Shown here one piece after another: positions 15,361 to 64,000 of a DNA stretch of 64,000 bases (position 1 is the first letter of the stretch; each line of letters starts with the position of its first letter). The notes beneath the pieces were generated by a model that made no database searches, was not told the origin of the DNA, and saw nothing but the letters and a program-made list of their open reading frames with translations. The stretch covers positions 1 through 64,000 of the forward strand of contig CAMSQM010000005.1 of NCBI GenBank assembly GCA_947062675.1, written 5' to 3'. Made by a program: the position numbers and the translations under genes. The DNA is from an uncultured Roseburia sp. GTDB lineage: Bacteria > Bacillota > Clostridia > Lachnospirales > Lachnospiraceae.

Positions 15361-15484
15361 AAATAACAGGTATTTCTATATTTTTCATAGAATTTGTCGA
15401 TAGATAAAAGGATTTATCAGCCCGCGCATGACTGTCACTGATTACGACGGCATGCGATTTCAAGGAAGAAAGGAGGGGTTTCTG

Positions 15485-16783
15485 ATGGCGGTTATTGACA
15501 ACGCTTATCAGTACTATCTTAAAACTTACGCTGCTTCCGGTGCGTCCCGCTACGACACGCATAAGAAGAGCCAGCTTCGCGCCGTTTACAACAATATAGT
15601 CAAAACAAACAAAGAATCTCCCCTGTACAAAATCAGGTACTCAGGAGATGTTCAGAGGTTTGCCATCGATATCAAGGAAAAAACGCGTTCCATCCAGAAT
15701 ATCGCGGCTTCTCTCTCGGACACCACAGGCAGTATGAGCAGCGCGTTTTCCAGAAAAATTGCCGAGACCTCCGATGAGGAGACCATAAAGGCGCAGTATG
15801 TAGGGTATGACCAGGATGTGGATCCCTCCACCCATTATGATGTGGAAGTGCTCCGTCTTGCCACCCCGCAGATCAACCGCGGTTCTTATCTCACCGGAGA
15901 GCGTGCCGGATTTAAGCCCGGCACTTACAGTTTTGACCTGAACACGAACTTAAGCTCCTATGAGTTTCAGTACAGCGTCAGCGCAAAAGATACCAACCGC
16001 AGCGTCCAGGATAAGCTGGTACGTCTGATCAACAACGCCAATGTCGGTCTCTCTGCCAGCCTTGCCACCAATGACCGCGGGCAGGCAGCGCTCCAGATCA
16101 CATCCGCGCAGACAGGCCTCAGTGAAAATGAGCGTTTTCTGTTTGAAATCATTCCTGCGCCCGACACGGGATCCATGAAAGCAATGCACACGCTTGGAAT
16201 CGATCAGGTCGCGGAGATGGCACAGAGTTCTTCTTTCCGTCTGAACGGCAGAGAACACTCCTCCCTGTCCAACACATTCACCCTGAACAATATGTTTGAG
16301 CTCACCTTAAAGAAGCCGGGCAGAAAAGGCCAGCCTGTCAGGATTGGCTTTAAGGGGAATGCGGACGCGATCGCCGACAATGTGGAATCCCTTGTGACCG
16401 CATACAACGATATCATCAAACTGGGGCACAGCTACAAAGCGACCCAGCCTTCCAGCAAACTGCTCCACGACATGGAGAGTGTCGCGAAGCTCTACTACAG
16501 CGAGCTGGAATCGGTCGGCCTGAATCTGGAGAGCGACAGCTATATCTCGGTTGACCGCAGCCTTCTGACAAAGTCCGTTTCCGGCGAAGACGCGGAAGAG
16601 AATCTTGATATGCTCAACCGCTTTAAGGAAGCCCTGAACAAAAAAGCCCAGGCCGCTTCCATCGACCCGATGAACTATGTCAGCAAGACGCTGATTGCCT
16701 ACAAGAATCCAAACGGACGTAATTTTGCCACGCCGTACATCACATCTGTTTACTCGGGGATGATGCTTGATCAGACCTGCTGA
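15485..16783 (+). CDS. fliD: FliD-like flagellar cap / hook-associated protein
   Basis: 432 residues from the ATG at 15485, chosen because AAAGGAGGGG lies just upstream; the frame is open to 15428. There is no signal peptide, as expected for type III flagellar export. The middle (about 95-230) resembles the FliD N-terminal D2/D3 region, and FELTLKKPGRKGQPVRIGF then DAIADNVESLVTAYNDIIKL is the FliD_C pattern. The long C-terminal coiled coil and final helix of canonical FliD are short, so this may be a variant cap or a FliD paralog. A sigma-28-type promoter upstream supports a late flagellar role, and the neighbouring glycan island is consistent with glycosylated flagella. Confidence 0.72.
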   Translation: MAVIDNAYQYYLKTYAASGASRYDTHKKSQLRAVYNNIVKTNKESPLYKIRYSGDVQRFAIDIKEKTRSIQNIAASLSDTTGSMSSAFSRKIAETSDEETIKAQYVGYDQDVDPSTHYDVEVLRLATPQINRGSYLTGERAGFKPGTYSFDLNTNLSSYEFQYSVSAKDTNRSVQDKLVRLINNANVGLSASLATNDRGQAALQITSAQTGLSENERFLFEIIPAPDTGSMKAMHTLGIDQVAEMAQSSSFRLNGREHSSLSNTFTLNNMFELTLKKPGRKGQPVRIGFKGNADAIADNVESLVTAYNDIIKLGHSYKATQPSSKLLHDMESVAKLYYSELESVGLNLESDSYISVDRSLLTKSVSGEDAEENLDMLNRFKEALNKKAQAASIDPMNYVSKTLIAYKNPNGRNFATPYITSVYSGMMLDQTC

Positions 16784-30220: not shown

Positions 30221-30549
30221 CTCATTTCTTCTCTTCTGATTTTCTGAAAGCATTCATCAACCTTCCATAATAATTTCCTGTAATATCGCTGTCTTTCATG
30301 AATATTCTCAAATAACAGTCTGCTCTCAAACCTGAAAGGCTTTAAAAACATATCCTGCAATTGTCTTCTGGTAAAATCCATGCAACTCACATATGAATAT
30401 CCCCATCGTTTCTGCAGACTGCTAAATATCATGCCGATCCGTAACCGGTCAAATTCAGAAAAATATTCCTCATATAAATTGTGCACAGGCTTTAAGTCAA
30501 AGTCCTTTATCCTGTCATTTACGGAGTCGAATTTAACCCCGGATATGCG
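30217..30549 (-). pseudogene. remnant of sulfotransferase-like protein C-terminus
   Basis: An open frame of about 110 residues whose C-terminal 90 (PVHNLYEEYFSEFDRLRIGM and RRQLQDMFLKPFRFE) match the end of the 845-residue protein at 57826-60363. Homology continues upstream of any start codon (GVKFDSVNDRIKDFDLKP), with no N-terminal 700 residues. A GTG at 30486 might allow a short product, but a truncated pseudogene is more likely. It overlaps the decayed GT4 gene on one side and couples to the intact GT4 gene on the other. Confidence 0.75.
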
Positions 30550-34570: not shown

Positions 34571-35569
34571 TCAGTATTCTTCAATATTTCCCAGCAGTTC
34601 TTTTATCTGTTTCACAGACAGCCAGTCTGTATTGGTTCCTGAACAGTATTCGAATTCCTGCTTCACCTTTTTTCCGCCATCATGCCTTCGATCACAATCC
34701 CACCACTCTGAGTGTGGATATATGATATAGTATTTGTCGTATTCATACGTATACAGAGAGTCCTCCCTTGTTATCATTATTTCATGCAGTTTCTCTCCTG
34801 CGCGAATACCCACTTCGGGCATATTACATCCGGGAAGAATCGCCTGCGCCAGGTCTGTAATCCTGAAGGATGGTATTTTAGAAATGAATGTTTCCCCTCC
34901 CTGCGCCTCAGACAGGGCTTTTAACACCAGCTGTACCCCTTCGTCCAGACTAATCCAGAATCTTGTCATTCTGTAATCCGTAATTGGAAGTTCATTTCCG
35001 CCACTGGCAATAATATTGCGGAAAAACGGAATTACTGAGCCCCTGCTTCCTGCCACATTTCCATACCTTACAATAGAAAAACTCACATTCTTTTTCCCGG
35101 AATATGCATTTGCCGCTAAAAACAATTTATCTGATACCAGTTTTGTCCCGCCATATAAATTGATTGGATTGACGGCTTTATCTGTAGAGAGTGCAACCAC
35201 TTTCTTTACTCCACAATCCAATGCCGCATCCACCACATTCATAGCACCGTTAATATTCGTTTTAACTGCCTCCATCGGATTATATTCACAGGATGGAACC
35301 TGTTTCAGCGCTGCAGCATGAACCACGTAATCCACATCCTCAAATGCCCGGTACAGACGGTCCCGGTCCCTGACATCCCCCACAAAGAAACGCAGCTTAT
35401 CTGCCTGCCAGTGATTTTTATATTTATTCCGCATTATAAATTGTTTATATTCATCCCTGGAATAAATCACCACTTTCCCAAGCCTGTAATTGTCAAGAAT
35501 ATAGGACACAAACTGGTGTCCAAACGAACCGGTCCCGCCAGTGATCAATATTGTCTTTCCATTCAGCAT
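34571..35569 (-). CDS. pseB: UDP-GlcNAc 4,6-dehydratase (inverting)
   Basis: A 332-residue short-chain dehydratase of the FlaA1/PseB type. It has the NADP loop TGGTGSFG (10-17), YSRDEYKQFIMRN, HAAALKQVPSCEYNP, the catalytic LSTDKAVNP (D130, K131) and YGGTK (Tyr139, Lys143). PseB converts UDP-GlcNAc to UDP-2-acetamido-2,6-dideoxy-L-arabino-hexos-4-ulose, the first step to pseudaminic acid. It precedes, 130 bases downstream, pseC in the transcript order pseI-pseH-pseG-pseC-pseB. GGAG lies before the ATG. Confidence 0.95.
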   Translation of the reverse strand: MLNGKTILITGGTGSFGHQFVSYILDNYRLGKVVIYSRDEYKQFIMRNKYKNHWQADKLRFFVGDVRDRDRLYRAFEDVDYVVHAAALKQVPSCEYNPMEAVKTNINGAMNVVDAALDCGVKKVVALSTDKAVNPINLYGGTKLVSDKLFLAANAYSGKKNVSFSIVRYGNVAGSRGSVIPFFRNIIASGGNELPITDYRMTRFWISLDEGVQLVLKALSEAQGGETFISKIPSFRITDLAQAILPGCNMPEVGIRAGEKLHEIMITREDSLYTYEYDKYYIIYPHSEWWDCDRRHDGGKKVKQEFEYCSGTNTDWLSVKQIKELLGNIEEY

Positions 35570-35699
35570 ACAGATATACTCTCCTTATATTATCTTTTTA
35601 TGTCACAGCCCGATTATACTTATTACCCGTTTTTTACCCTCTCTGTCCAGGAAGTGCAGCTTCCCTGCTTTTTATCCCTGCTGCAATAGAAACTTTCGC

Positions 35700-36836
35700 T
35701 CAGCCGGCCGCCTGCCTTACACTGTCAATAACATATTTCTGATCTTCAAACGATAAAGACGGATACAGAGGCAGACTTAGCATATGCTTATACAGCTTTT
35801 CAGCATTCACACAATGCGTATCTTTATATCCATGTTCCCGATAATACGGATGTCTGTAAACCGGAATATAGTGCACATTTACCCCTATTCCTTTTTCACG
35901 CATTTTTTCAAAAAACTCTCTCCTGTCATGTCTGAGCACCTGAATAATATACAAATGCCACCCGCTATCCACTTCTTCAGACTGGTACGGCACAATAATA
36001 TCTCCGCAATCAGATAATGCCTCATGATATCTTCGGGCGAGCTCACGTCTTTTTGCCAGAAACAGGTCGAGTTTTCTCATCTGACTGATTCCCAGCGCGC
36101 ACTGGATATCTGTAATCCTGTAATTATACCCCAGGCACTGTTGTTCATAATACCACGGACCCTGGTCTTCCTTCAGAAAATCTGCATCCCTTGTAATTCC
36201 ATGACTCCGAAACAAAAGCAGTTTCTGATACAGTTGCTCAGAATCTGTCAAGATCATTCCACCCTCGCCAGTCGTCACAGGCTTAACAGGATGAAAACTG
36301 AACGTAGTCATATCGGATAGAGCGCCAATCTTTTTCCCTTTATATCCGGCACCAAGGGCATGCGCCCCGTCTTCAATTACAATCAGATGATTTTCTTCCG
36401 CAATCCTGTGAATTTCATCCATATCGCATGGCTGTCCTGCCAGATGAACCGGAATAATCGCTTTTGTCCGGCATGTGATTTTTCTCCTGATATCCTCCGG
36501 ATCTATGTTATAAGTACGCGCATCAATGTCTGCAAATACCGGCGTACCACCGCAATACAACACACAGTTTGAAGAGGCTGCAAATGTTACGGGCGAAGTA
36601 ATTACTTCATCTCCTCTCCCGATTCCTGCTGCAAAACATGCCGCATGCAGCGCGGCCGTGCCATTTGAAACTGCCACCGCATATTTTGCACCCACATATT
36701 CTGCAACGGTATGCTCAAATTCTTCAATTTTAGGACCGGTTGTAAGATAATCACTGCGAAGCACCTGTACAACCTCCCGGATATCATCTTCATCTACTGA
36801 CTGTTTTGCATAAGGAATATAAGCTTTTTCACCCAT
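35700..36836 (-). CDS. pseC: UDP-4-amino-4,6-dideoxy-sugar aminotransferase
   Basis: 378 residues from ATG 36836; an in-frame GTG at 36848 is a weaker option. DegT/DnrJ/EryC1 aminotransferase: SNGTAALHAACFAAGIG, VIEDGAHALGA (Asp156 binds PLP) and SFHPVKPVTTGEGGM with Lys185 as the Schiff-base lysine. PseC uses PLP and glutamate to aminate the PseB product at C4. Followed by pseB and preceded, 15 bases upstream, by pseG. The 130-base gap to pseB contains no gene. Confidence 0.94.
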   Translation of the reverse strand: MGEKAYIPYAKQSVDEDDIREVVQVLRSDYLTTGPKIEEFEHTVAEYVGAKYAVAVSNGTAALHAACFAAGIGRGDEVITSPVTFAASSNCVLYCGGTPVFADIDARTYNIDPEDIRRKITCRTKAIIPVHLAGQPCDMDEIHRIAEENHLIVIEDGAHALGAGYKGKKIGALSDMTTFSFHPVKPVTTGEGGMILTDSEQLYQKLLLFRSHGITRDADFLKEDQGPWYYEQQCLGYNYRITDIQCALGISQMRKLDLFLAKRRELARRYHEALSDCGDIIVPYQSEEVDSGWHLYIIQVLRHDRREFFEKMREKGIGVNVHYIPVYRHPYYREHGYKDTHCVNAEKLYKHMLSLPLYPSLSFEDQKYVIDSVRQAAG

Positions 36837-36851
36837 CTGTCTTCCCACTTT

Positions 36852-37883
36852 CTATTGTAGTCCGGATCCGGTCCCTGAAATTTTCACAAGCTCTTTTGCA
36901 ATCCTTACCGCGCCAGCCCCGTCAACCAGCTTCTGCATTCTCACTGACCTCTCTTTCCTTTCTTCCGGATGACTGTAATAGCGCATCAAAATCCGGTTAA
37001 TCTTTTCAAATATATCCGTATCACGGAGATCCCCGGCATAATCAATTATCCTTTCATCCTGAAACTGCCTTACATTATTGAGCTGATTATCTGCAAACGA
37101 ATACGCAATCGCCGGTGTTCCACAGGCACAAAGTTCATATAATGTTATCCCTCCCGCAGAAAGCGCCATGTCTGCCTGCATCATAAATTTTTCAATTCTT
37201 CCGGCTGTTTTGTGAAAATGAATATTTTCATACCGCCTGTACCGGTTACATAATTGTTCATAACCTGTATAGTAAGTTCCGCATATAACATCTATATTTT
37301 TGAACTTTTCTTTTTCAATCACTTCCAGTATACCACTTAAAGCATTAAAACGGTCAGTTCCCCCAGAGAGCAAAAGGAGATTTTCAATTGTTTTTTTTAT
37401 TTCTTTTCTCCCGCAATTCCGAAATTCTTTCCTCAAAGGTGCATAACGCGGGCCTGTAAGCAGCCTTGTTTGCCTGTACCTCTGGCCGTAACAAAACTTT
37501 TCCCAATAGTTTGCATAACATATAAGCATGTATACCGGATAATGAAACAGATTCAGATCATCAACATAAACAACATGTGTACGCTCAGACAGCATTTCCA
37601 GATACTTTTTCGTCACCATATAACTGTCAATCAGCAGTACCTTTGCCGACCGCTCAGATATCAGGTCACATATCGCATCTGACTCTGAGTCCATATCATC
37701 CCATGCAGTATGAAGAACAACCGTACGATACCCACGTTCCTGAATAAATCCGGCAGCCTTATCATCTGCAAGTATAAACGTAGTATCTTCGCCCAGATCT
37801 GCCGCAGCATCCGCAATCGCAAGACAGCGCATAATATGACCTGTGGCAATTATATTATTCATATCCGCCCTTACATACAGCAC
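36852..37883 (-). CDS. pseG: UDP-2,4-diacetamido-2,4,6-trideoxy-altropyranose hydrolase
   Basis: A 343-residue MurG-like GT-B-fold hydrolase. It starts at GTG (37881-37883) after AGGAG; no ATG fits. The N-terminus has ATGHIMRCLAIADAA with the catalytic His16, the middle LLSGGTDRFNAL, and the C-terminus ALSAGGITLYELCACGTPAI. PseG removes UDP to release the free 2,4-diacetamido sugar for condensation. It follows pseH by eight bases. The start is slightly short compared with the usual N-terminal strand, which may instead begin one or two codons earlier. Confidence 0.94.
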   Translation of the reverse strand: MLYVRADMNNIIATGHIMRCLAIADAAADLGEDTTFILADDKAAGFIQERGYRTVVLHTAWDDMDSESDAICDLISERSAKVLLIDSYMVTKKYLEMLSERTHVVYVDDLNLFHYPVYMLICYANYWEKFCYGQRYRQTRLLTGPRYAPLRKEFRNCGRKEIKKTIENLLLLSGGTDRFNALSGILEVIEKEKFKNIDVICGTYYTGYEQLCNRYRRYENIHFHKTAGRIEKFMMQADMALSAGGITLYELCACGTPAIAYSFADNQLNNVRQFQDERIIDYAGDLRDTDIFEKINRILMRYYSHPEERKERSVRMQKLVDGAGAVRIAKELVKISGTGSGLQ

Positions 37884-37891
37884 TTGTACTT

Positions 37892-38389
37892 TTACTCCTC
37901 TCCTGCATCCATTTCCATTTCATAAGTAATATATTTTTCTGTATACCCGGTAATCAGAAAGATACTCCTCGATATCACATTGTCCATTTTAACTTTTGCG
38001 ACCAGTTTCTTTACTTTCGGAAAATCATGTCTGATCTTTTCGGTTAGCAGAGAAATCATGTCTTTTCCATACCCCATACCTCTCTTCTCCGCGGCAATAC
38101 TATAACTTATCTCCGCCTCATCGCCACGGACCACAACCCTTGCCTGTCCCGTCTCTTCATCATCCCGCACATAGATATATTGTCCGGCATCAGAAGATTC
38201 CAGAAGCTTCTTATACCAGCTCACATGTTCCTCATACGTAATCTTTCTGCCAGAAAATGAATTTTTTCTGACTGCACTCTCATTCGCCCAGTAATATAGT
38301 AAATCTACATCCTGTTCCGATCCTCTTCTTAAATATTCCAACTGTTTCTGCCCTTCAGGTAAATTTTTTAATCTAATCCGTACAGCCAC
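37892..38389 (-). CDS. pseH: UDP-4-amino-sugar N-acetyltransferase
   Basis: A 165-residue GNAT protein with SFSGRKITYEEHVSWYKKLL and the acetyl-CoA motif EISYSIAAEKRGMGYGKDMI. PseH acetylates the C4 amino group made by PseC. It overlaps the end of pseI by 17 bases and is followed by pseG, the usual order in Gram-positive pseudaminic clusters. Confidence 0.92.
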   Translation of the reverse strand: MAVRIRLKNLPEGQKQLEYLRRGSEQDVDLLYYWANESAVRKNSFSGRKITYEEHVSWYKKLLESSDAGQYIYVRDDEETGQARVVVRGDEAEISYSIAAEKRGMGYGKDMISLLTEKIRHDFPKVKKLVAKVKMDNVISRSIFLITGYTEKYITYEMEMDAGEE

Positions 38390-39410
38390 ACATATCCATT
38401 CTCAGCGGCGTTCCTTTTTGAATATCGCGCAATGCTTTCTGTCCCAGTATTTCATGGTATAATCCGGGTGCCAGTCCGTACCCCGGCCGGATCACTCTTA
38501 CATTCTCTTCCGTCAGCGTTTCGCCTTTCTTTATGTCCCGTACGCAGAAAACAGATCTCCTGAATATCAGACCGGATTCTTCCTGATCTGTTTGTCCATA
38601 CCAAACTTCCCCAAGTGCTTTTTCCGCCTGTCTGATATCGTCCACCATCCGTTTAAATTCTTCAGGTTCCATTGAAAAAGAAGAATCCGGAGTTTTAATA
38701 TCTCTTCCGGCACAAAGATGCTTCTCAATGACACAGGCTCCTAACGCTACCGCTGCCACTGCCGCTGCAGAACCCATGGAATGATCCGACAGACCAACCG
38801 GTACACGGAACACATCCCGCATATTCACCATCGTCCTCAGATTCATTCCATCTGCCACCGCAGGATAAGCGCTGGCACATCGAAGCAGCACAATCTGGTC
38901 ATTCCCCTTTCTGCGTGCTGCACATACTGCGTCCTCGATTTCTGCCAGAGTCGCCATTCCCGTTGACAGAATTAAAGGCTTGTTTTTCGATGCGGCATAT
39001 TCAATCAGCGGGATATCTACCAGCTCAAAAGATGCAATTTTATATAACTCTACTCCGATTTCTTCCAGAAAATCAACCGATGACCGGTCAAATGCCGTGG
39101 AAAAAAAATCAATTCCTGCCTTATGTGCCTCTTCTTTTAATTCAGCATGCCACTCCCACGGTGTATATGCTTTTCTGTACAGATCATAAAGATTCTCTCC
39201 TTTCCATGTCCCGTCCTCTATCCGGAAGAATTCTTTATTACAGTCGATTGTCATTGTGTCTGGTGTATACGTCTGAAGTTTAACACAGTCAGCCCCGGCT
39301 TCTCTGGCAGCATGAACAATCTCCCTGGCTCTGTCTATACTGCCTGCATGATTCGCTGACATCTCGGCAATAATATATACCCGTTTTTGTATTTTCTTAT
39401 AGAAATCCAT
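38373..39410 (-). CDS. pseI: pseudaminic acid synthase
   Basis: A 345-residue NeuB-family synthase: VYIIAEMSANHAGSIDRARE at the start, GADCVKLQTYTPDTMTID, LYKIASFELVDIPLIEYAAS, STGMATLAEIEDA and VGLSDHSMGS in the barrel, and a C-terminal SAF/antifreeze-like domain (about 285-345, VIRPGYGLAP). It condenses the free 6-deoxy-AltdiNAc with PEP to give pseudaminic acid. The ATG follows GGGGAGGT. Placing the KLQTYTPDTMTID motif with PseC and PseG neighbours favours pseudaminic over sialic or legionaminic acid. Confidence 0.94.
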   Translation of the reverse strand: MDFYKKIQKRVYIIAEMSANHAGSIDRAREIVHAAREAGADCVKLQTYTPDTMTIDCNKEFFRIEDGTWKGENLYDLYRKAYTPWEWHAELKEEAHKAGIDFFSTAFDRSSVDFLEEIGVELYKIASFELVDIPLIEYAASKNKPLILSTGMATLAEIEDAVCAARRKGNDQIVLLRCASAYPAVADGMNLRTMVNMRDVFRVPVGLSDHSMGSAAAVAAVALGACVIEKHLCAGRDIKTPDSSFSMEPEEFKRMVDDIRQAEKALGEVWYGQTDQEESGLIFRRSVFCVRDIKKGETLTEENVRVIRPGYGLAPGLYHEILGQKALRDIQKGTPLRMDMCGCTD

Positions 39411-45637: not shown

Positions 45638-45692
45638 CTTCCTGCCCTCCCCCACTGTCAGTGGCTTTATCTCTTTTCCATTTCTTTAGTAA

Positions 45693-51623: not shown

Positions 51624-51880
51624 TCTTCGCCCCGCTCCTGCCCGGTCCTGCTTTTAACATATCTGAATATCTTTTCCGGAGACTCAAAATTGTCCGGAAT
51701 CAGATCCTGAGGATGTATTTTTATCCCGTAACTTTCCTCAAGTTCCGGCAGCAGCCGCTCAAATATGATCAGGGAATCCAGATACCCGCACTCAAATAGC
51801 AATGTATCGGCTTCCAGATCTCCCGAAGCCTGAATCGTTTTTAAAAAACTAATTATTTTTTCTACCGAAACTTCTTTCAT
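51620..51880 (-). CDS. acyl carrier protein-like protein
   Basis: An 86-residue free-standing carrier protein with the phosphopantetheine site DSL (Ser36 in CGYLDSLIIFERLLPELEE) and the acidic helix II typical of ACP and D-alanyl carrier protein. It lies between an adenylation protein and an AAC(3)-like acyltransferase with four-base overlaps on each side. It would hold the acyl or aminoacyl group as a thioester for transfer. No phosphopantetheinyl transferase gene is in the window. Confidence 0.85.
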   Translation of the reverse strand: MKEVSVEKIISFLKTIQASGDLEADTLLFECGYLDSLIIFERLLPELEESYGIKIHPQDLIPDNFESPEKIFRYVKSRTGQERGEE

Positions 51881-54847: not shown

Positions 54848-56686
54848 CTATACATCCTCTATAATCAACCCATTCTCATAGAGTTTCTTTACGACAGGAA
54901 TCAGTTCTATTGCTCTTACCTTAATTTTTTCACTGATATCAAACAAGTCATTTGTACCATCCGCATAAGCAATAAAATTAAACATCTTCCTCACCTCATT
55001 TTCATCACTGCTTTTCTGACTGACAGATGGGTACAGTCCCCGTCTGCCAAGCTGTGGCTCGCATAGAACGGTTGTTCTGTATTTTGCATTATGCTCCATT
55101 ACCTGTATCCACTGTGTCATAACCTCATAACTGCCCTGTAGTCCCTCAGGAGAAATCAGGTCCATATTATCAGCGGACGTATGATATTCCGGATACATTC
55201 CATATTTTGTTCTGCAGAATCCGATCACAGGAAGATCCACCCCCGGAGCATTATACTGCCTTTCATCTGACCCTCTCTCCAAAAATGAATACTCTGTAAA
55301 TCGTCTGCAAAACCTCAGTATATTCGTCATTCCTTTATCCGCCAGGGTGTCTGCACTCCTTGTATGAATAATAGAATAATCTCTGTCATCACCCACACAG
55401 GACAGCACTACACCTGCCACCATTTTTTCCTTCAGGTAAGTGTAATTTCTGCTGATATAAGCAATAGAGCCAATTGTCTCCGGATTGAGAACAAAACGGT
55501 ACGTATACTTTCGCTTTCTGAGTGACCGCACATATTTTACCAGTTCCGCAAGCAGCGCCGGACCAGAACACTCATTATTGGCCATAGAAGGATGGCAGAT
55601 ATAACTGGAAATCAGAATTTCCTGATCAGATTCTCCCGGCAGAATAATATCTGCATATGTCAGATGACCGTCTGTCAGCTCACTATCAATAAACATATGA
55701 TATCTTCCCTCTTTCAGGGAATCAAGCTGCTGTCTGCTCATACAAAAGCCATAGATTTCTTTATAATACGATGTAACATAGGGCACAAGTTCAGGCTGGT
55801 CAGGCTGCGTATAAATATATTCCTTCAGTTCTTCCAATGTAACCCATCTGTCTACAGGAGCTGAATAACTCACGATATGGAGATTATTCTCTTTCATATC
55901 AATAATACGCATCCCGTGTTCATCTTCAATATACGCATCACGAATAATCCATTCCTTCGGTATCTTCCAGTCATAAACTTTCATCCCGGTAGGAATTTCA
56001 TAGATCGTCATCCCTCCCCCGTCCTGACCAATATACTGCGAAACTGCCTTCAGCGTTTTTCTGACACCTTCTCCTGTAATACTCCTGCAAATATGAAAAA
56101 TAGATGCAGCAAAACCGTAGATTTCCGCGCCCTTATTATCTGTTATACTGTTGTCCTGATATCCGGCATTGATCTTTTCCTGTGCCTCCAGACCGGCAAT
56201 CTGCTCTGCCAGCTCTTCCGGCCTCATTTCCCCGTCATTCAGCAATATCAGATCCGGACGTTTCGGCTCCTCAAAATCCATCTGTACGCCAACCACATCT
56301 TTCTCCTTCTCATTTGTATTCCCACTGTAAAGCCCTTTCTGGTCACGGGCACGGAGCGTTTTCATGGACACCTTCACATAAATCTCTGTATAATTATGAA
56401 TATTTGTCCTGTTCCACTCCCTCACACTGTCAAACATGGAAATCGTACAGCAGATTACATTTATCCCCTGTCCTCCAAGAAGTGCGCACAGCCTGGAATA
56501 CCGCATTGCACATTTTCTGCGGTCTTCCCTGGTGTATCCCAGATCATCTCCGAATACTTTCCGCAACACATCTCCGTCCAGAAACACCGTATCAGGATAC
56601 TCTTTTTTTAGTTTTTCGTAAAAAATTTTTCCGATTGTCGTTTTACCTGCACCGGAAAGTCCTGTAATCCAGTATACCCTGCCCAT
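54848..56686 (-). CDS. APS-kinase-like (CDP-amidate kinase type) fused to DUF4910/M28-like domain
   Basis: 612 residues. Residues 1-175 are CysC-like: WITGLSGAGKTT (P-loop 9-16), FLDGDVLRKVFGDDLGYTRE and EIYVKVSMKTLRARDQKGLY. C. jejuni Cj1415, a CysC homolog, phosphorylates cytidine diphosphoramidate; with cytidylyltransferase, hydrolase and glutamine-kinase genes nearby, that role fits better than sulfate activation. Residues about 185-612 match the DUF4910/DUF2172 aminopeptidase-like group (SYICHPSMANNECSGPALLA and PEYHTSADNMDLISPEGLQG). The second domain's role is unknown. GGAGGAG precedes the ATG. Confidence 0.82.
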   Translation of the reverse strand: MGRVYWITGLSGAGKTTIGKIFYEKLKKEYPDTVFLDGDVLRKVFGDDLGYTREDRRKCAMRYSRLCALLGGQGINVICCTISMFDSVREWNRTNIHNYTEIYVKVSMKTLRARDQKGLYSGNTNEKEKDVVGVQMDFEEPKRPDLILLNDGEMRPEELAEQIAGLEAQEKINAGYQDNSITDNKGAEIYGFAASIFHICRSITGEGVRKTLKAVSQYIGQDGGGMTIYEIPTGMKVYDWKIPKEWIIRDAYIEDEHGMRIIDMKENNLHIVSYSAPVDRWVTLEELKEYIYTQPDQPELVPYVTSYYKEIYGFCMSRQQLDSLKEGRYHMFIDSELTDGHLTYADIILPGESDQEILISSYICHPSMANNECSGPALLAELVKYVRSLRKRKYTYRFVLNPETIGSIAYISRNYTYLKEKMVAGVVLSCVGDDRDYSIIHTRSADTLADKGMTNILRFCRRFTEYSFLERGSDERQYNAPGVDLPVIGFCRTKYGMYPEYHTSADNMDLISPEGLQGSYEVMTQWIQVMEHNAKYRTTVLCEPQLGRRGLYPSVSQKSSDENEVRKMFNFIAYADGTNDLFDISEKIKVRAIELIPVVKKLYENGLIIEDV

Positions 56687-56708
56687 AACCGCTCCTCCAG
56701 ATTATTTT

Positions 56709-57126
56709 TTACCCCAGCTGTGATTCAGCAATTTTTAAATCCGAAATATCATCTATTTCATACCATCCTCTTGTTATGTGTACCGCCCTCAGTTTACAGC
56801 CTTCATCAATCAGACCCTGAAGCAGGTCTGTCATATACATCTTTTTGTAGCTTCCGGCAGTCCTCCACAATGCCAGGCCCTGTCTGCTCCTTTCCTCTGC
56901 CTCCCCGCAAATCCTTAGCAGCTCCTTCAGGCCTTCTCCACGAAACCGCATCAGCCCGATATACTGAGACTGTACTTTTCGCACACATGAGGGAATACAC
57001 CATATTCGTCGTCTCATATTCCTCATTGACAACAAAGCGAATCTCTGTATCCTTATATTTCTCTTTTAACACAGAGCTGCGGTATCCCGCTATGACAATG
57101 ATATCCGCATCACTGATTCCACAGGC
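56709..57126 (-). pseudogene. decayed copy of cytidylyltransferase (61114 gene)
   Basis: Fragments match the intact gene at 61114-61893: ISDADIIVIAGYRSSVLKEK and NEEYETTNMVYSLMCAK, then a deletion of about 75 residues, then, in another frame, VQSQYIGLMRFRGEGLKELL and KMYMTDLLQGLIDEG to the stop. The first 40 residues including the nucleotide loop are also missing. Confidence 0.88.
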
Positions 57127-57446
57127 ACGTATTTCCCATCAGCGCCCAGTGCACGCTGTTATCCGCAAGCCCGGTCTCTTCCGCTGTCCCTGCAGACCAT
57201 ATAACTCCTTCCCATGAATTTCTGCACGCTTCCGTGCGCATCGCATCATTCGGCTCTACCGCATACCCTCCAGGTCCCGCTTCCGTAAGATTTTCTGTCA
57301 GCTTTCCTGTTCCGGCGCCGATATCTGCCACTACCCCTCGCCTATGCTGTTAAAAATAGATTTCTCAGACACTGCAATAACACCCTTGAATATCCGGGTC
57401 TGTTTCCGTAAAATTTTGCCAGCTCCGTAAAGTCTCCATGTTTCAT
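57126..57446 (-). pseudogene. decayed copy of methyltransferase (62575 gene)
   Basis: ATG 57446 starts MKHGDFTELAKFYGNRPGYS, which aligns with the 62575 gene, then hits a stop; another frame continues DIGAGTGKLTENL and GGYAVEPNDAMRTEACRNSW, ending abruptly where cytidylyltransferase remnants begin. About half the gene is missing, along with the hydrolase gene that lies there in the intact copy. Confidence 0.85.
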
Positions 57447-57471
57447 GTTTATACCTCTTTTCTACGATGTT

Positions 57472-57720
57472 TTACTTTAAAATCCTTATCAGCTTACCCA
57501 TTGCATCAATCTCCAGCATTTTTGCACTCTTATATTTTAAAAATGCCTTTTCCCCCACCCCGACTACTGCCGGCACTAAAAGCTCTCCTGCCCGGATCGC
57601 CATGTGTGAATTGGCTTATACTGAACCAGCACGCCATACTCCCCTGCAAGGGCATATCCATTGTCAATACACCCCACTCCTTACTTCCCCTGAATCCTCT
57701 TCTATTTCAAATAAATAATT
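57472..57720 (-). pseudogene. remnant of glutamine-kinase-like (PEP-utilising) gene
   Basis: The last 50 codons (ANSHMAIRAGELLVPAVVG, KMLEIDAMGKLIRILK and a TAA at 57472) match the end of the gene at 63346. Upstream to about 57720 the sequence is degenerate with several stops; nothing can be read in the stretch 57721-57825. Confidence 0.82.
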
Positions 57721-57825
57721 AATATTTCCATCGGGTATCCATACACTTTTACCTACTTTCTGGCTGCAAAATATCCGGTAATCTGATATCCGTCTCCTGT
57801 CATCTTATCCACATCCAATTCAGCA

Positions 57826-60363
57826 CTATTCAGTTCCTCTGGTTTCCAGTATTTCCATTCTCCGGGTCATTTGTAATCTGTACCTTATCAGTTCCCTGAC
57901 CCGTTTCCTTATTTCTGCTTTTTCTTCTTCACTGTGGTAAATCAGTTTCTTTTCAAACCGAAAACTTTTTGAAAACATCTCCTGCAGTTCTCTTCTGTTG
58001 AATTGAAGGCTGCTTACCCAGGGATATCCATAGCGTTTCTGCCACGGCCCTGTAATCAGGGATATACGAAATCTGTCATATTCCGAAAAATATTCCTCAT
58101 ACGTATTGTACACCGGCTTCAAATTAAATCCTTCATTGCAATCATACACCTGCTCTCCGTGCTGAGTAATCCTGGACAGACTGTCTGACCATTCTATCCC
58201 CAGTTTATCACAAAACGCATAAAGCTCCTTCTCCGGTCTGCATTTCAAATCTTCAAACCTGGCACTGATTCTTCTCCATCCTCTGTACTCCTTCTCCAGG
58301 CACCCGGGTTCCTCCAGTACTGATGAAAAAACAGCCATTTTTCCATTCGAAAAATAATCTATCGCCTCATAGTTCTTTAAACCGGAGCCTGCTCTTATAC
58401 ATGCATTTCGCACAACATTAATAATCATCCCCGTCATACATGCCTTCTCAAGCCAGATCGCATAGCTCTCACAAATATTTCTCGGCACAAAATGCGGTTC
58501 CCAGTATATCACCATGTCAGAAACATCCTTTATTTCCTTTCCCCACATCCTGCTGTATGCGATATGTATTATCACAAACAGCTCTTGGGATGTAAACGTC
58601 TCCTTTTTCGCCAGCATATTTTTCATGCAGTCATTAAATTTTTCTTTATCCGGATAATTATCTTCCCAGTCACTGTTCCGCTCTGCCTCTTCATCCTCAT
58701 GCATTTTCCAGAACAGCGGCAGAATATCCCGGCTCTTTATTTCTGACAGTCTTAAACAGATTGAGTATAAATTATCATTCAGATAACCATAATCAATTAT
58801 CAGAATGTCCGGATGTGCGTCCAGCAATTGTCGAAAAAGCATATTCCCGCTGGACGCCTGGATCGACCCGATCAATATTTTTCCCACCCTGAACCCTGAT
58901 TTTATGTCATTCTCCACCCAGGCGGTCTCCTCCATAAATGCTCTGTTCTCCAGCGGATAATCTATGACCTCTGTTATATCCCGGTTTTTTAGTTCTGACA
59001 AATATTTTCTTTTAATTGATTTATAAGAATCGCTCCCCCGTTCCCCGCTTTTCATCATTCCATAATACTCCGGACAGATCAGCAGACATACATCCTGCTT
59101 CGCTATCTCCTTCTCTCCAGCCTCGGATATATCTGCCCCCTCCCGCTCTCTGTGCTCTTTCAGCACATCTGCATATCTGATTTTTCGGGAATATATGCCA
59201 GATTCTCTCTCAAGTATTTTTTCCATTTTTAAACATAACTGTGAATCACCAGTCAGCACAACCTGTTTCCCTGTTTTCGTCAGCACATGTCGCAATATGT
59301 TCACATATCCCGCTCCGGAAATCTCAATATAATCTTCCATCAGAAAAAATCTGTGATTTCTTTTGTATCCCCAGTAATGAAATATATCAGTTGCGCCAGA
59401 CCCCCACGCACTGTATCTGCATCCCGCCTCCAGAAAAATAATATCTTCTACACTTTTTATCGCTTCTTTTCTTTTTAAAATTCTTTTTCCAAACAGATAT
59501 CTTCCCGCGTCATTTGCTCTGTCTGAAATAAAACAGCATATATCCAGTCCATACTTCAGCAGCATATCATATGCATCCAGCGCCGCTGTTTCTGAGCCAA
59601 GAATCGCAATCTGTCTGCCTGATATTCTGGCAACAATATCTTCAAAGCATCCATCTGAATCGCCAATAACACCTTTACAGATATTTTCTTCATATATCCG
59701 GTCGATACACTCAAATTCCACCGACACGCTTTTCCGCCACTCAGTTGCCTTCTCTTTTATTCCTATGCCCTCTGCGTAAATTGTAAGCGTCCTGTATTCA
59801 GGCGCCTCCTCTTTTTTCAGAACCTGCAGCTCTTCCCACAACGGCCCTGTCACTTTGACAGGCACTCCGATCATCTCAAGATACTTTACAAATAAATATG
59901 CCAGTTCGTTACATTCATGTACCGTCACACAATCGAACTGCGGGTACACGTCCCTGAAATTCAATACATTACAGCCTCGCAGCTGTAACTGCGTCAGCTC
60001 ATCCAGCATCCTGCATTCACGGTCGGCATCGTCATCCTCCCATGCAAAACACAAAAGCCGGTGCTCCCTGTCCAAAACGGGAAGTATCAGCATTTCTCCA
60101 AATACCCTTTCACAGTCCCGGAAATATCGTCTTCCTTTTTCCCATATACTCCCGTCCAGGATAACATATTCGGTTTTAACGGCTTCCTTAATATCTTTTC
60201 CCAGCAATGATGCATATGTAACCATTCCCACAAATTCGCCGGACTGTTCCATCACGCAAACCAGATCATGCCTGTGCCCATTCATAAAATATGTTAGCAG
60301 CTCTTGTCTGTTAAGTTCATTTTCCGGCACACAGCACACTTCTTTATCACAAAATCTTATCAT
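57826..60363 (-). CDS. CBS-like + Rossmann-like + sulfotransferase-like protein
   Basis: 845 residues from ATG 60363 (four bases after GGAGGGG; an in-frame GTG at 60375 is less likely). Residues 1-125 are the CBS-pair-like region shared with the 43562 gene (MIRFCDKEV start). Residues about 245-350 are the Rossmann-like module (RQIAILGSETAALDAYDMLL). From about 490 on it looks like a sulfotransferase: KILIGSIQASSGNMLFRQLL as a P-loop-like segment and MIINVVRNACIRAGS as a second binding motif. Its neighbours make a 3'-phosphonucleotide donor, so it may transfer a phosphoramidate. Paralogous fragments lie at 30217 and 60380. Confidence 0.72.
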   Translation of the reverse strand: MIRFCDKEVCCVPENELNRQELLTYFMNGHRHDLVCVMEQSGEFVGMVTYASLLGKDIKEAVKTEYVILDGSIWEKGRRYFRDCERVFGEMLILPVLDREHRLLCFAWEDDDADRECRMLDELTQLQLRGCNVLNFRDVYPQFDCVTVHECNELAYLFVKYLEMIGVPVKVTGPLWEELQVLKKEEAPEYRTLTIYAEGIGIKEKATEWRKSVSVEFECIDRIYEENICKGVIGDSDGCFEDIVARISGRQIAILGSETAALDAYDMLLKYGLDICCFISDRANDAGRYLFGKRILKRKEAIKSVEDIIFLEAGCRYSAWGSGATDIFHYWGYKRNHRFFLMEDYIEISGAGYVNILRHVLTKTGKQVVLTGDSQLCLKMEKILERESGIYSRKIRYADVLKEHREREGADISEAGEKEIAKQDVCLLICPEYYGMMKSGERGSDSYKSIKRKYLSELKNRDITEVIDYPLENRAFMEETAWVENDIKSGFRVGKILIGSIQASSGNMLFRQLLDAHPDILIIDYGYLNDNLYSICLRLSEIKSRDILPLFWKMHEDEEAERNSDWEDNYPDKEKFNDCMKNMLAKKETFTSQELFVIIHIAYSRMWGKEIKDVSDMVIYWEPHFVPRNICESYAIWLEKACMTGMIINVVRNACIRAGSGLKNYEAIDYFSNGKMAVFSSVLEEPGCLEKEYRGWRRISARFEDLKCRPEKELYAFCDKLGIEWSDSLSRITQHGEQVYDCNEGFNLKPVYNTYEEYFSEYDRFRISLITGPWQKRYGYPWVSSLQFNRRELQEMFSKSFRFEKKLIYHSEEEKAEIRKRVRELIRYRLQMTRRMEILETRGTE

Positions 60364-60379
60364 TTTCCCCTCCACATTA

Positions 60380-61089
60380 TCAGTTCCGGGGATTCCGGTC
60401 AGAGCAATTTCGTTCCAGAATCTCTTTCCTGTGAGTTACCTGCAAATTAGCATCTGCTAACTTCTGAACCCATTTCCGAAATCTTATTTTATCTTCCGGA
60501 CTCCGAAATGCAATGTTTTTCTCAAAATGAAACTCTTTTAAAAACATATCTTTCAATTCCCGCCTGGAGAAATCCAGACTACTGACATACGGATATCCAT
60601 ACCGTTTCTGCCATGGCGCTGTAATCAGAGAAATACTGATCATGCGTACGAGATACCGGCACCGGATCAAACCCTGTAATTTTGTCATAGTATGACGGCT
60701 GTCCGTGAAGTGTTGTTTCAAGTAATGTATCAGACCACGTTATATCCAGCAGCCTGCGAAATAACTCAAATTTATAATAAGAAATATCCTCTCTAAAGAG
60801 AGCCTCTGCCCATGAACCTGCTCTCACACACGCATTCCTTACAATATTAATCAGGTATCTGTCATAGCAGGCATCCCCCATTAACACCATTCTTCTTCCG
60901 CAATGCTCCAGGACATTCAGCAGACCGCTCTCAGGAATTTCCGTATAATCTTTCACTAAAAAATATTGCTGATTCCTCTTATAACCAAAATAATGATAAT
61001 TATCTACCGACCCGGAACCCCACGCGCTGTTTTCCGATTGTAGTTTTACCTGCACCGGAAAGCCCCGTTATCCAGTACACTGTGCCCAT
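60380..61089 (-). pseudogene. deletion-fused remnant: CysC-like start joined to sulfotransferase-like gene
   Basis: From ATG 61089 it reads MGTVYWITGLSGAGKTTIGK, the start of a second APS-kinase-like gene, then at about 61030 jumps into sequence of the 57826 protein: AWGSGSVDNYHYFGYKRNQQ, LINIVRNACVRAGS and DITWSDTLLETTLHG, with two more internal gaps, a frameshift near 60640 and the C-terminal ITAPWQKRYGYPYVSSLDFS to a stop at 60380. A product is unlikely. Confidence 0.87.
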
Positions 61090-61113
61090 AAGTTTACTCC
61101 GTATCCTGTTCGT

Positions 61114-61893
61114 TTATTTCAGCTCTGATTCCACAATCTTCAGATCCTCACCGTCATCTATTTCAAACCATCCTCTCCGTATGTGGACTGTTTTCAGTTT
61201 CGCACCCTCGTCGATCAGTCCCTGGAGCAGATCTGTCATATACATTTTTTCATAGCTTCTCTCTGTCCGCCAGAGTGACCGTCCCTGTTCACTCCTCTTT
61301 TTTGCCTCTGCGGCAAGTCCCAGCACTGCCCTCAGCCCTTCTCCCTTAAACCGCATAAGCCCGATATACTGGGATTGTATTTTTGCAGATTCTGATGTTT
61401 TCTGACCGATTTCCGTCAGACAGCCATTCGCATCATACATCAGGGTTTCCGCATCGTCCAGCGGGTTATCAAATCTTCTCGACCAGTATTCATACCATCC
61501 GTCATCCACAACGACCGATATCTCATCTTTCGCCTCCAGAATCTTCCGGAAAACCTGCTCCCCGAAAATAATATCGCCATAAGAGATAATAATATCCTCC
61601 TCTGATTCCATAAGCTTTTTTGCACACATCAGGGAATATACCATATTGGTCGTCTCATACTGATCATTTACAAGAAAATGTATCCCTGTATGCTTATACA
61701 TATCCTTCAGGACATCATTCCTGTAACCAGCTATAATTGTAATATCTTTATCCGCAATCCCGCACCCACGGATAGCGGATAACTGGCGTTCGATCATACT
61801 CTTTCCATTCACCTGCACCATGCATTTGGGCCTGTCATCCGTCAGGGGCCGCAGTCTGGTTCCCTGACCTGCTGCCAGTATGATTACTTTCAT
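61114..61893 (-). CDS. sugar/choline-type nucleotidyltransferase; candidate phosphoglutamine cytidylyltransferase
   Basis: A 259-residue LicC/GalU-like nucleotidyltransferase: MKVIILAAGQGTRLRPLTDD is the nucleotide loop, RPKCMVQVNGKSMIERQL follows, ISYGDIIFGEQVF carries a metal Asp and RRGWFEIDDGEDLKI lies at the end. In the C. jejuni phosphoramidate route the corresponding enzyme (Cj1416) uses CTP and L-glutamine phosphate. It is placed next to hydrolase, methyltransferase and glutamine kinase genes in the matching order. A LicC-type phosphocholine role is the alternative. Confidence 0.82.
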   Translation of the reverse strand: MKVIILAAGQGTRLRPLTDDRPKCMVQVNGKSMIERQLSAIRGCGIADKDITIIAGYRNDVLKDMYKHTGIHFLVNDQYETTNMVYSLMCAKKLMESEEDIIISYGDIIFGEQVFRKILEAKDEISVVVDDGWYEYWSRRFDNPLDDAETLMYDANGCLTEIGQKTSESAKIQSQYIGLMRFKGEGLRAVLGLAAEAKKRSEQGRSLWRTERSYEKMYMTDLLQGLIDEGAKLKTVHIRRGWFEIDDGEDLKIVESELK

Positions 61894-61966
61894 TTAATGC
61901 CTCCTTTCGCCCTGTTTCCGTCAGCCAGCCAGAGCCCTTATTCTATATTTCAGGACCGCGGCATGA

Positions 61967-62563
61967 TCATCGAAACAATGTCCTCACCTGCTGTATATCT
62001 GACACCGCGTAAGGCTTCTCTCGTTCCGGGTGCCACATAGTGGCCACAATCTGTCTTTCTCTGCAGCAGACTGCTTCAATTACGCCATCCACAGCCCGGG
62101 CCAGTACCTCCAGGGGGGCTTTTATCTGAAAGCACCCCTGATTATGATAACTGTTTACTTCCAGTGGCCCCGACACCCCTGAAACGGTGTGACGGACAGC
62201 CACATGACCTTTCACATCCTTAAGCTCACATCCGAAATAGTCCAGTATAGACTGCATGCCCCGGCAGAACCCATATACCGGAATCGCGTCACGCTCTGCG
62301 ATTTCAAGCAATACCCGGTCTGTTCTGTCTCGTTCCGGTGCATTCCCACCATATTTTACCAGCGAATTACCTCCTGTCAGAAGAATTCCGGCCGGCCGGA
62401 TGGCTGCAGCAAATTCCCCGGGGTTTTTAAGCATATTGGGAACCGGAACCGGCAGATATCCACATTCCTCCAGGAACATTGGAATATTCTGGTCTGCGCA
62501 GTCCCTTCGCTCCCCATAGCTTTCCACGATTTCCACTCTCTGTGTATACAGTATCGTCTTCAT
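61967..62563 (-). CDS. class I glutamine amidotransferase-like hydrolase; candidate gamma-glutamyl-CDP-amidate hydrolase
   Basis: A 198-residue peptidase C26-type protein with the catalytic triad visible: Cys100 in PVYGFCRGMQS, His178 and Glu180 in MWHPERE. The C. jejuni counterpart Cj1417 splits CDP-L-glutamine to glutamate and cytidine diphosphoramidate. It lies between a nucleotidyltransferase and a methyltransferase. An ordinary gamma-glutamyl-GABA hydrolase is the alternative, but a purine or glutamate-metabolism context is absent. Confidence 0.82.
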   Translation of the reverse strand: MKTILYTQRVEIVESYGERRDCADQNIPMFLEECGYLPVPVPNMLKNPGEFAAAIRPAGILLTGGNSLVKYGGNAPERDRTDRVLLEIAERDAIPVYGFCRGMQSILDYFGCELKDVKGHVAVRHTVSGVSGPLEVNSYHNQGCFQIKAPLEVLARAVDGVIEAVCCRERQIVATMWHPEREKPYAVSDIQQVRTLFR

Positions 62564-62574
62564 TTTCTGCCGCC

Positions 62575-63327
62575 TTATGCTTTTACCTGCGCCATCCAGA
62601 TCCTCGTTGTATAAGGCACCCTGATTATTTTTTCTCCCTTCGCCTCAACAATCTTTTGAATTTCAGTGTTAATCAGATCAAATCTGTCCCTCGACTGGCG
62701 CTGGAGAGTACCGTGTGATTTCCATCCTTCTATAAAATCTTCCGTGGGAATGTCATGCAGAACCGTTCCCTCCACATATACAACTTCCCTGAACAATCCG
62801 CTTTTGTTAATTACCTCCGTCTGGTCCTCCCGTCTGGTCCCATAACTGTACCCTTCGATCTGAGCCTTTAATACATCTTCAATCTCTTTCTGGAGCGGAT
62901 CATTCAGATCACGATGATTCCACATACACGCAAACCACCCGCCGCTTTTGAGAATTCTTCCTGATTCCTGAAGCGCTTCCTGCCGGTCACACACATTAAA
63001 AGAAGAGCCAAACGTGACAAGATCAAATTTCCCCGATTCCATTCCCGTGTGTTCTCCGACTCCCTCAAACCACTGCACATTCTGGTAATCTGCAGTTCTT
63101 TTGATTCCATTCTCCCGCATCGCATCATTCGGCTCAACAGCGCAGACATTCAGGCCATACTCCGCCAGCCTTAAAGTCAGATGTGCCGCCCCTGCACCGA
63201 CATCGCAGGCTGCGTCCCCGCTTTTCACTCCCGCTGTCGCAAGCATTTTATCAATCGCACTCTGAGCATAATCCGGTCTTTTCAGATACGCCTGTGCCAG
63301 TTCCGTGTAATCCCATTCTGTTTTCAT
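62575..63327 (-). CDS. class I SAM-dependent methyltransferase
   Basis: A 250-residue methyltransferase with motif I CDVGAGAAHLTLRLAEYGLN, then VCAVEPNDAM, KFDLVTFGSSFNV and ILKSGGWFACMWNH. It starts at ATG 63327, 18 bases after the glutamine-kinase-like gene stops. In the C. jejuni phosphoramidate locus two methyltransferases (Cj1419, Cj1420) lie beside the glutamine kinase; this one may methylate the phosphoramidate. A decayed relative lies at 57126-57446. Confidence 0.86.
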   Translation of the reverse strand: MKTEWDYTELAQAYLKRPDYAQSAIDKMLATAGVKSGDAACDVGAGAAHLTLRLAEYGLNVCAVEPNDAMRENGIKRTADYQNVQWFEGVGEHTGMESGKFDLVTFGSSFNVCDRQEALQESGRILKSGGWFACMWNHRDLNDPLQKEIEDVLKAQIEGYSYGTRREDQTEVINKSGLFREVVYVEGTVLHDIPTEDFIEGWKSHGTLQRQSRDRFDLINTEIQKIVEAKGEKIIRVPYTTRIWMAQVKA

Positions 63328-63345
63328 AATATTAATCCCTTTCTT

Positions 63346-64000
63346 TTATTTTAAAACTCTGATCAGTTTTCCTGATGCATCAATCTCCAGCATCCGTGCC
63401 TGCTTATAGGCCGCGAATGCCTTCGTCCCAACTCCCACAGCCGCGGGAACGGACAGTTCTCCCGCACGGATTGCCATATGTGAATTGGCACCGCCATACA
63501 TTGTAATAAACCCGCTTATCCCGTGTGAAAATATCCAGTCATATCCCGGATCCGCACTCGGTATCAGCAGAATCTTACCTTTCAGGTCCTCCCGGCGCAG
63601 TTCTCCCTCCATAAGGCAGACTTTACCGGATACACGGCCGGATGTGATAAAATTAGGTTCAGAATCCGGATAAAAAAATCCCATTACCTCCTCCGGCCGG
63701 ATAATGAGCGGCGGCAATGTAAGAGTCTTCGTAATCTCATAAGACTCTTTTCCCCGCTTTACAGACTCCTCAAGGCATGTCCTCCTCTCTTTCGTGGAGA
63801 CATACATTGCTCTGATGTCCTGAACATTGACATACGCGCAGTCTTCGACCGGTATCCCTTCCTGCCTGCCAAGTTCCGCAATCATCTGAAGCGCCTTGCT
63901 TAAATTTCTTGTAAATGCAAATTTTCCATATTCGCGCCCTTCAATTACTGTCCGTATAAATTCCAGCAGCTCCAGTATATCATTGGTAAGCCTGTTCTCA
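63346..64000 (-). CDS. PEP-synthase-like protein, candidate L-glutamine kinase; 5' part outside window
   Basis: The C-terminal 217 residues are visible and the frame stays open to the right edge (REYGKFAFTRNLSKALQMIA upstream of the first ATG). Near the end is the PEP-utiliser-type swivelling domain with its catalytic His: TMYGGANSHMAIRAGELSVP followed by AAVGVGTKAF. The C. jejuni Cj1418 protein has this architecture and phosphorylates L-glutamine with ATP. The N-terminal ATP-grasp part is not in the window. Followed by a methyltransferase, the hydrolase and the cytidylyltransferase. GGGA-type Shine-Dalgarno signals lie between the genes. Confidence 0.82.
   Translation of the reverse strand, partial: ENRLTNDILELLEFIRTVIEGREYGKFAFTRNLSKALQMIAELGRQEGIPVEDCAYVNVQDIRAMYVSTKERRTCLEESVKRGKESYEITKTLTLPPLIIRPEEVMGFFYPDSEPNFITSGRVSGKVCLMEGELRREDLKGKILLIPSADPGYDWIFSHGISGFITMYGGANSHMAIRAGELSVPAAVGVGTKAFAAYKQARMLEIDASGKLIRVLK

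Follow-up and report, generated by a model that had tools for sequence, protein, structure and literature searches.

We analysed a window of 64,000 nucleotides from an uncultured Roseburia sp. of the Lachnospiraceae (bases 1-64000 of the 90,030-base contig CAMSQM010000005.1, in a draft genome of 3.0 Mb), and in particular a gene cassette at its far end. An initial annotation had read five genes here as a route to O-methyl phosphoramidate (MeOPN), the capsule tag of Campylobacter jejuni, placed on a surface or flagellar glycan. All five genes were found at the positions it gave, on the minus strand. It had not noticed a transferase-like open reading frame (ORF) at 57826-60375, nor what is left of a second cassette. 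The cassette features are as follows.

63346..64000, minus strand: L-glutamine-kinase-like gene, C-terminal part (whole gene G000:C5:63346-65691, 781 residues)
62575..63327, minus strand: S-adenosylmethionine (SAM) methyltransferase of cassette subfamily MT1, candidate phosphoramidate O-methyltransferase (Methyltransf_11, 1.6e-14)
61967..62563, minus strand: gamma-glutamyl-CDP-amidate-hydrolase-like enzyme of the Peptidase_C26 type (NF045546 match, catalytic triad)
61114..61893, minus strand: LicC-like nucleotidyltransferase, candidate CTP:phosphoglutamine cytidylyltransferase (NTP_transferase; LicC 1jyk)
61030..61089, minus strand: stub of a CysC gene, 20 codons, 95% identity to the intact CysC (tblastn)
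60413..61028, minus strand: decayed copy of a sulfotransferase-like gene (tblastn pieces, two frames)
57826..60375, minus strand: 849-residue protein with a C-terminal sulfotransferase-fold domain, candidate phosphoramidate transferase
57475..57615, minus strand: remnant of a second kinase gene, its last 47 codons (blastn, tblastn)
57119..57446, minus strand: remnant of a second methyltransferase, of subfamily MT2 (tblastn with an MT2 query, 58-64% identity)
56715..57132, minus strand: remnant of a second nucleotidyltransferase gene, two frames (tblastn)
54848..56686, minus strand: CysC-like kinase at about residues 1-172 (candidate CDP-amidate 3'-kinase), in fusion with DUF4910/DUF2172 and a winged helix (APS_kinase, 1.4e-30)
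30271..30528, minus strand: further fragment of a sulfotransferase-like gene (tblastn, profile match)

When the region was compared against its own sequence and against the intact proteins it encodes, two tandem cassettes became apparent. Cassette A has the kinase, MT1, hydrolase and nucleotidyltransferase intact, and ends with the CysC stub and the decayed sulfotransferase-like gene. In cassette B the sulfotransferase-like gene and CysC are intact, and the remnants of the kinase, the MT2-type methyltransferase and the nucleotidyltransferase lie between the two; a second copy of the hydrolase was not seen in this comparison. Together the cassettes retain one intact copy for each of six functions. 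If six of twelve gene copies survived at random, such a pattern would appear with p 0.07, so it is only a hint.

Kinase, hydrolase and nucleotidyltransferase

The kinase gene continues beyond the window to base 65691 of the same contig, where it is complete at 781 residues. The initial annotation had made its reading depend on an ATP-binding N-terminus, and the completed protein has one, a PPDK_N domain (8.4e-19), together with a C-terminal PEP-utilizers mobile domain (5.4e-12). By these predictions it has both domains expected of an L-glutamine kinase, the ATP-binding one and the mobile one with its His. The protein scores 964 bits against NCBIfam NF004508 (cut-off 501), a model titled only 'hypothetical protein', and the His of its GGANSHMAIR motif is kept in 84 of the 84 rows having a letter there. 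Some relatives are built differently. In two loci (L014:2834-5614 and L015:4640-7420) the kinases are 926 residues long and have an N-terminal extension, which we take to resemble TagD, a glycerol-3-phosphate cytidylyltransferase. A third (L016:3198-6233) is a kinase-hydrolase fusion of 1011 residues; neither nucleotidyltransferase nor CysC was found in that stretch, and the end product there may be different.

The top curated family of the hydrolase is NF045546, gamma-glutamyl-CDP-amidate hydrolase (8.8e-29, 101 bits), whose cut-off of 250 is not reached; the next-best, the PuuD family NF008471, gives 44 bits and fails its cut-off of 266. Three relatives from other genomes also have NF045546 as their best family, at 112-129 bits, all below 250. 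Its name suggests that NF045546 was built on Cj1417, the C. jejuni hydrolase. The catalytic triad had been described as intact, and its Cys, His and Glu are indeed identical in 81/81 family rows, while Gln8, Arg9, Glu18, Arg20, Asp21, Asn43, Arg78, Asp79 and His140 are each present in at least 78 of the 81. One more relative of the hydrolase (G120:C98:15135-15770, L122; 153 bits) has one in-frame stop, and its genome lacks the kinase.

The weak point of the pathway assignment is the nucleotidyltransferase, which is included because it stands near the kinase in 80/81 loci. A Cj1416-specific model was not among its 25 best NCBIfam matches, and its plasmid-borne relatives carry the annotation 'phosphocholine cytidylyltransferase family'.

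To describe this linkage, relatives of the kinase were collected from several sources. It was found at E<=1e-60 in 7 of the 295 genomes of the same order. A contig scan gave at least 542 stretches, of which the best 80 were taken, ranked by likeness to the query, and the sample therefore leans to close relatives. The titles of these 80 name Lachnospiraceae, Oscillospiraceae, Selenomonadaceae, Bacillus, Paenibacillus, Treponema, Nitrospina, Pseudomonas, Chitinibacter, Azospirillum, Verrucomicrobia, Pirellula, Bryobacteraceae, Fibrimonadaceae, Obscuribacterales and Sericytochromatia, among others. By our own reading of the names, the best 80 of at least 542 stretches represent at least nine phyla; Campylobacter is not named among them. 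Among 72,556 plasmid records, 14 also have a kinase relative. The annotated neighbours of the one on an Azospirillum plasmid are adenylyl-sulfate kinase, methyltransferase, PEP-utilizing enzyme, gamma-glutamyl-GABA hydrolase family and phosphocholine cytidylyltransferase family, and two sulfotransferase genes lie close by. On a Cupriavidus taiwanensis plasmid (L102) a kinase relative with 34% identity lies near nif genes, with no cassette partners annotated beside it.

The linkage set started from 87 loci: the window contig, five order genomes, 79 of the 80 scan loci (L038 duplicates L012) and two plasmid loci (L100, L101). The sixth order genome, G214, is scan locus L025, and the set leaves aside the Cupriavidus plasmid, a phage-labelled record and the remaining plasmid matches. 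Six loci with less than 2.2 kb downstream of the kinase (L033, L034, L047, L064, L073, L078) were dropped, which gave 81 loci. Counting matches over 100 bits, the hydrolase is found at 79 of these, the nucleotidyltransferase at 80 and both at 79, so that the grouping of the genes is not a matter of chance. CysC and a methyltransferase are each found at 61 loci and together at 54, the sulfotransferase-like protein at 36, and all three of these at 31. The core is incomplete in two loci, L016, where the hydrolase is fused to the kinase and no other cassette genes were found, and L040, where no hydrolase was found. On the kinase strand, the gene orders seen most often are kinase-hydrolase-nucleotidyltransferase alone (14 loci) and CysC-MT1-kinase-hydrolase-nucleotidyltransferase (10), followed by the same order with MT2 (4).

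CysC-like kinase, sulfotransferase-fold protein and methyltransferases

In the product of 54848-56686 an APS_kinase domain occupies residues 2-148 and is fused to DUF4910/DUF2172/HTH_47. The fusion is in frame, and in a phmmer comparison with the ORFs of the loci then available, this second part was found in the window only. The CysC part alone scores 182 bits against PRK05541 (cut-off 127), which it passes, and 115.8 against apsK (TIGR00455, cut-off 138.7), which it fails; PRK05541 itself carries the label adenylyl-sulfate kinase. All five cassette CysCs compared in this way, from the window and four other loci, lie over the PRK05541 cut-off and under that of apsK. The CysNC of the same genome, which is encoded on a different contig next to genes read by eye as CysD-like and sulfotransferase-like, shows the opposite pattern, passing apsK with 241 bits and failing PRK05541 with 120.7. 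A second CysNC, from locus L037, passes both.

The same division is seen in a FastTree tree of 65 CysC and adenosine 5'-phosphosulfate (APS) kinase domains, all longer than 130 residues. The 61 CysCs from cassette loci are split with support 1.0 from four APS-kinase domains, one from E. coli CysC, two from CysNC proteins (this genome and L037) and one from a fusion in L061, the reading frame of which has an ATP sulfurylase match as well. The cassette CysCs keep the P-loop, the DGD motif and other shared kinase positions. At five positions their commonest residue is a different one (in 53 to 60 of the 61), and the window protein has the cassette type at all five. Judged by these sequences, the cassette CysC-like kinase appears to be distinct from APS kinase. 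ATP sulfurylase (CysN or Sat) was not detected in 20 of the 37 carrier genomes searched, and therefore no route to 3'-phosphoadenosine 5'-phosphosulfate (PAPS) was detected in them. The missing ATP sulfurylase and the separate CysC branch fit with a PAPS-like donor, 3'-phospho-CDP-amidate, which is what Cj1415-Cj1418 are reported to make (PMC11800397).

The ORF at 57826-60375 has its sulfotransferase fold at the C-terminal end, at about residues 490-849, and the nearest solved structures of this domain are sulfotransferases. Sulfotransfer_3 is found in nine of ten relatives, and one Arg, presumably in the region that binds the 3'-phosphate, is invariant in 40/40 rows. The sulfotransferase-like gene occurs in 4/295 genomes of the order, and three of those four are among the seven kinase carriers (hypergeometric 3e-5). 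The 57826-60375 protein is probably the phosphoramidate transferase. One of the genes in the order (L111, genome G180) encodes a full-length sulfotransferase-like protein, and no phosphoramidate cassette gene was found within the 15 kb fetched around it.

The MT1 profile matches at E<=1e-30 in three of the 295 genomes, each with the kinase; these three are themselves rows of the profile. Among the 81 loci, MT1 alone is found at 30, MT2 alone at 21, both at 10 and neither at 20, so the two subfamilies mostly substitute for one another.

Proposed phosphoramidate pathway

The MeOPN pathway of C. jejuni comprises Cj1415-Cj1418 together with the methyltransferases Cj1419/Cj1420 and the transferases Cj1421/Cj1422. 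Cj1415-Cj1418 convert glutamine, ATP and cytidine triphosphate (CTP) into CDP-phosphoramidate 3'-phosphate, and deletion of Cj1421 or Cj1422 removes the tag from one sugar each (PMC11800397). Phages recognise the C. jejuni tag (PMC9561416), which also has an effect on serum resistance (PMC3907429). Of 30 Campylobacter strains, 13 had orthologues of cj1416-cj1418, and 9 of 13 tested strains gave MeOPN signals (PMC3907429). One review calls the kinase C. jejuni-specific (PMC9561416) and another gives the tag as known only in Campylobacter (PMC6429109). In the literature searched, which consisted of papers readable without subscription and partly of excerpts, no report of a MeOPN-type glycan tag outside Campylobacter was found, and nothing linked MeOPN or phosphoramidate glycan clusters to a sulfotransferase. 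In the accessible part of a paper on flagellar islands of Clostridium botulinum, the word 'phosphoramidate' appears in the reference list only.

We consider it probable, at roughly 0.78, that the window carries a C. jejuni-type phosphoramidate donor-and-transfer pathway within the flagellar-glycan island of a Lachnospiraceae-type bacterium. The kinase would act as an L-glutamine kinase, and the LicC-like enzyme would join its product to cytidine monophosphate (CMP), using CTP. The C26-type hydrolase would then strip off the glutamate to leave CDP-amidate, whose 3'-hydroxyl would be phosphorylated by the CysC-like kinase. From this PAPS-like donor the sulfotransferase-fold domain of 57826-60375 would transfer the phosphoramidate to a sugar hydroxyl, and MT1 would add an O-methyl group to the tag; we infer the order of methylation relative to transfer, as well as the substrates of all these enzymes. 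The phosphoramidate interpretation of the initial annotation is largely supported.

The likeness to the MeOPN pathway lies in the enzyme types, compared as such and not by alignment, in the gene order, which in C. jejuni is kinase-hydrolase-nucleotidyltransferase-CysC, and in NF045546 as the best curated family of the hydrolase. Unlike the C. jejuni system, the present one has a Gram-positive host, a nonulosonate/flagellar island in place of a capsule locus, a large sulfotransferase-fold candidate transferase, a CysC fused to DUF4910, and a hydrolase below the curated cut-off. With sulfate activation and the PAPS sulfotransferases (CysD, CysN/C, PF13469) it shares APS-kinase- and sulfotransferase-type folds and the proposed 3'-phosphonucleotide donor, but it differs in the ATP sulfurylase undetected in more than half of the carriers and in the separate branch of its CysCs. 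LicC resembles the nucleotidyltransferase in fold and is its best solved relative, but the match is confined to residues 2-136, and in 79/81 loci the nucleotidyltransferase stands near both kinase and hydrolase.

The chemistry of the pathway core is known; the host group is new. As far as we have searched, the sulfotransferase-fold transferase, the breadth of the spread and the exchange of MT1 for MT2 are new. With less confidence than for the window itself, we lean towards a general bacterial 'phosphoramidation' that runs parallel to sulfation, in which 3'-phospho-CDP-amidate would be a widely used activated donor, from which sulfotransferase-fold enzymes would decorate surface glycans, including those of flagella, with (methyl) phosphoramidate; it would span at least nine phyla and involve two interchangeable methyltransferase subfamilies. 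With the cassette present here and distributed across many phyla, the phosphorus-nitrogen tag would be a widespread surface modification. Three points become testable: the transferase family, the reason for the 3'-phosphate of the donor, and the acting methyltransferase. The 3'-phosphate can be read as a PAPS-like handle for the sulfotransferase fold, and interchangeable MT1 and MT2 subfamilies might account for a silent methyltransferase knockout.

Acceptor glycan and alternative readings

Further along the window lie genes that bear on the acceptor.

34571..39410, minus strand: pseudaminic-acid genes PseB, PseC, PseG, a GNAT gene and PseI (TIGR03589, TIGR03588, TIGR03590 and TIGR03586 over their cut-offs; GNAT by Pfam)
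15428..16783, plus strand: FliD-like flagellar cap gene (FliD_C 9.6e-09, over its cut-off)

These features bear out the Gram-positive flagellar-glycan setting that had been proposed for the cassette. The FliD_C gene is about 38 kb from the closest cassette gene. In the flank beyond the window LegB and LegC are over their curated cut-offs, and four other contigs of the genome together have five Flagellin_N matches. Within the stretches examined, flagellin-, FliD- or FlgJ/K/L-like genes are found in 16 of the 87 loci (the queries were named by eye), and the cassettes of five Pseudomonas-type loci stand beside flgJ-flgK-flgL, also named by eye. The likeliest acceptor here would be a flagellar glycan, most likely one that contains a nonulosonate; across the whole kinase and cassette family, there is probably more than one acceptor glycan. 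Toward the contig end, NeuC-, NeuB- and CMP-transferase-like genes were read by eye, as was a tyrosine-recombinase-like gene (L131:9245-10450), which lies near the contig end and is preceded by legionaminic-acid-type genes.

Several observations weigh against the proposed pathway. The hydrolase scores stay at 101-129 bits in 4/4 proteins, where 250 is required, its best solved structure is PuuD (6vtv, 1.5e-9), and no solved Cj1417-type hydrolase was among the matches. The best solved relative of the nucleotidyltransferase is the phosphocholine cytidylyltransferase LicC (1jyk, 7.8e-18, residues 2-136), and no curated model ties the kinase to Cj1418 or the nucleotidyltransferase to Cj1416 by name. 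The initial annotation had held that best matches to choline or polyamine pathways would count against it; on this point the curated family of the hydrolase speaks for the annotation, at 101 bits versus 44 for PuuD, but below the cut-off, and the two solved structures speak against it. The CysC gene of the window is an unusual fusion, an ATP sulfurylase type is present in 17/37 carriers including this genome, and with its CysNC this genome therefore probably has PAPS available. Genome G180 has the sulfotransferase-like gene but lacks the kinase, and the 15 kb fetched around the gene show no cassette; 45/81 loci have no sulfotransferase-like gene over 100 bits, in flanks that are mostly up to about 10 kb and often shorter. 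Furthermore, 14 loci have kinase, hydrolase and nucleotidyltransferase only on the kinase strand, and the end product may therefore differ between lineages.

The most serious alternative concerns the acceptor: the donor would be made as proposed, but would feed a teichoic-acid-like polymer, a capsule or a small molecule instead of a flagellar glycan. This is compatible with the donor part of our proposal and is possible, although we think it the less likely outcome. It agrees with the low share of loci with flagellar-type genes, with the several loci that sit among other polysaccharide genes, and with the N-terminal extension of the L014 and L015 kinases, presumably TagD-like; the Pse genes and flanking Leg genes that surround the cassette, the FliD_C gene in the window and the Pseudomonas-type loci beside flgJ-flgK-flgL point instead to the flagellum. 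A look-alike pathway, in which the same folds act on another amide or another nucleotide, seems improbable to us. It would explain the low score of the hydrolase and the nearness of PuuD and LicC among solved structures, but the enzyme types that make up the known pathway occur together, and residues of hydrolase and kinase are tightly conserved.

It is also conceivable that the same donor pathway operates, while CysC makes PAPS, the 57826 protein sulfates the glycan, and an unrecognised transferase moves the phosphoramidate. The fold and nearest solved structures of 57826 are those of sulfotransferases, the host genome has a CysNC and a CysD-like gene and CysN or Sat is not rare among carriers, and one genome has the sulfotransferase-like gene but no cassette. 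This arrangement is nevertheless unlikely, though slightly less so than the look-alike, given the 20 carriers in which ATP sulfurylase was undetected, the cassette CysCs that all fail apsK and group apart from the APS-kinase domains, and the concentration of the sulfotransferase-like gene in kinase carriers of the order. We think it about as improbable as the look-alike that this strain has a decaying island and a non-functional pathway. The remnant second copies of the kinase, methyltransferase, nucleotidyltransferase, CysC and sulfotransferase-like genes would agree with decay; the one intact copy for each of the six functions goes against it, as the hint described above.

Two other parts of the window were noted. 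In 43562-45655 the N-terminal part resembles that of the 57826-60375 protein, and the C-terminal domain is of the citrate-lyase-ligase type. At 49715-53421, genes for an adenylation domain, a small carrier protein, an AAC(3)-like and a GNAT-like protein stand in series, which may be a module for acyl or aminoacyl decoration.

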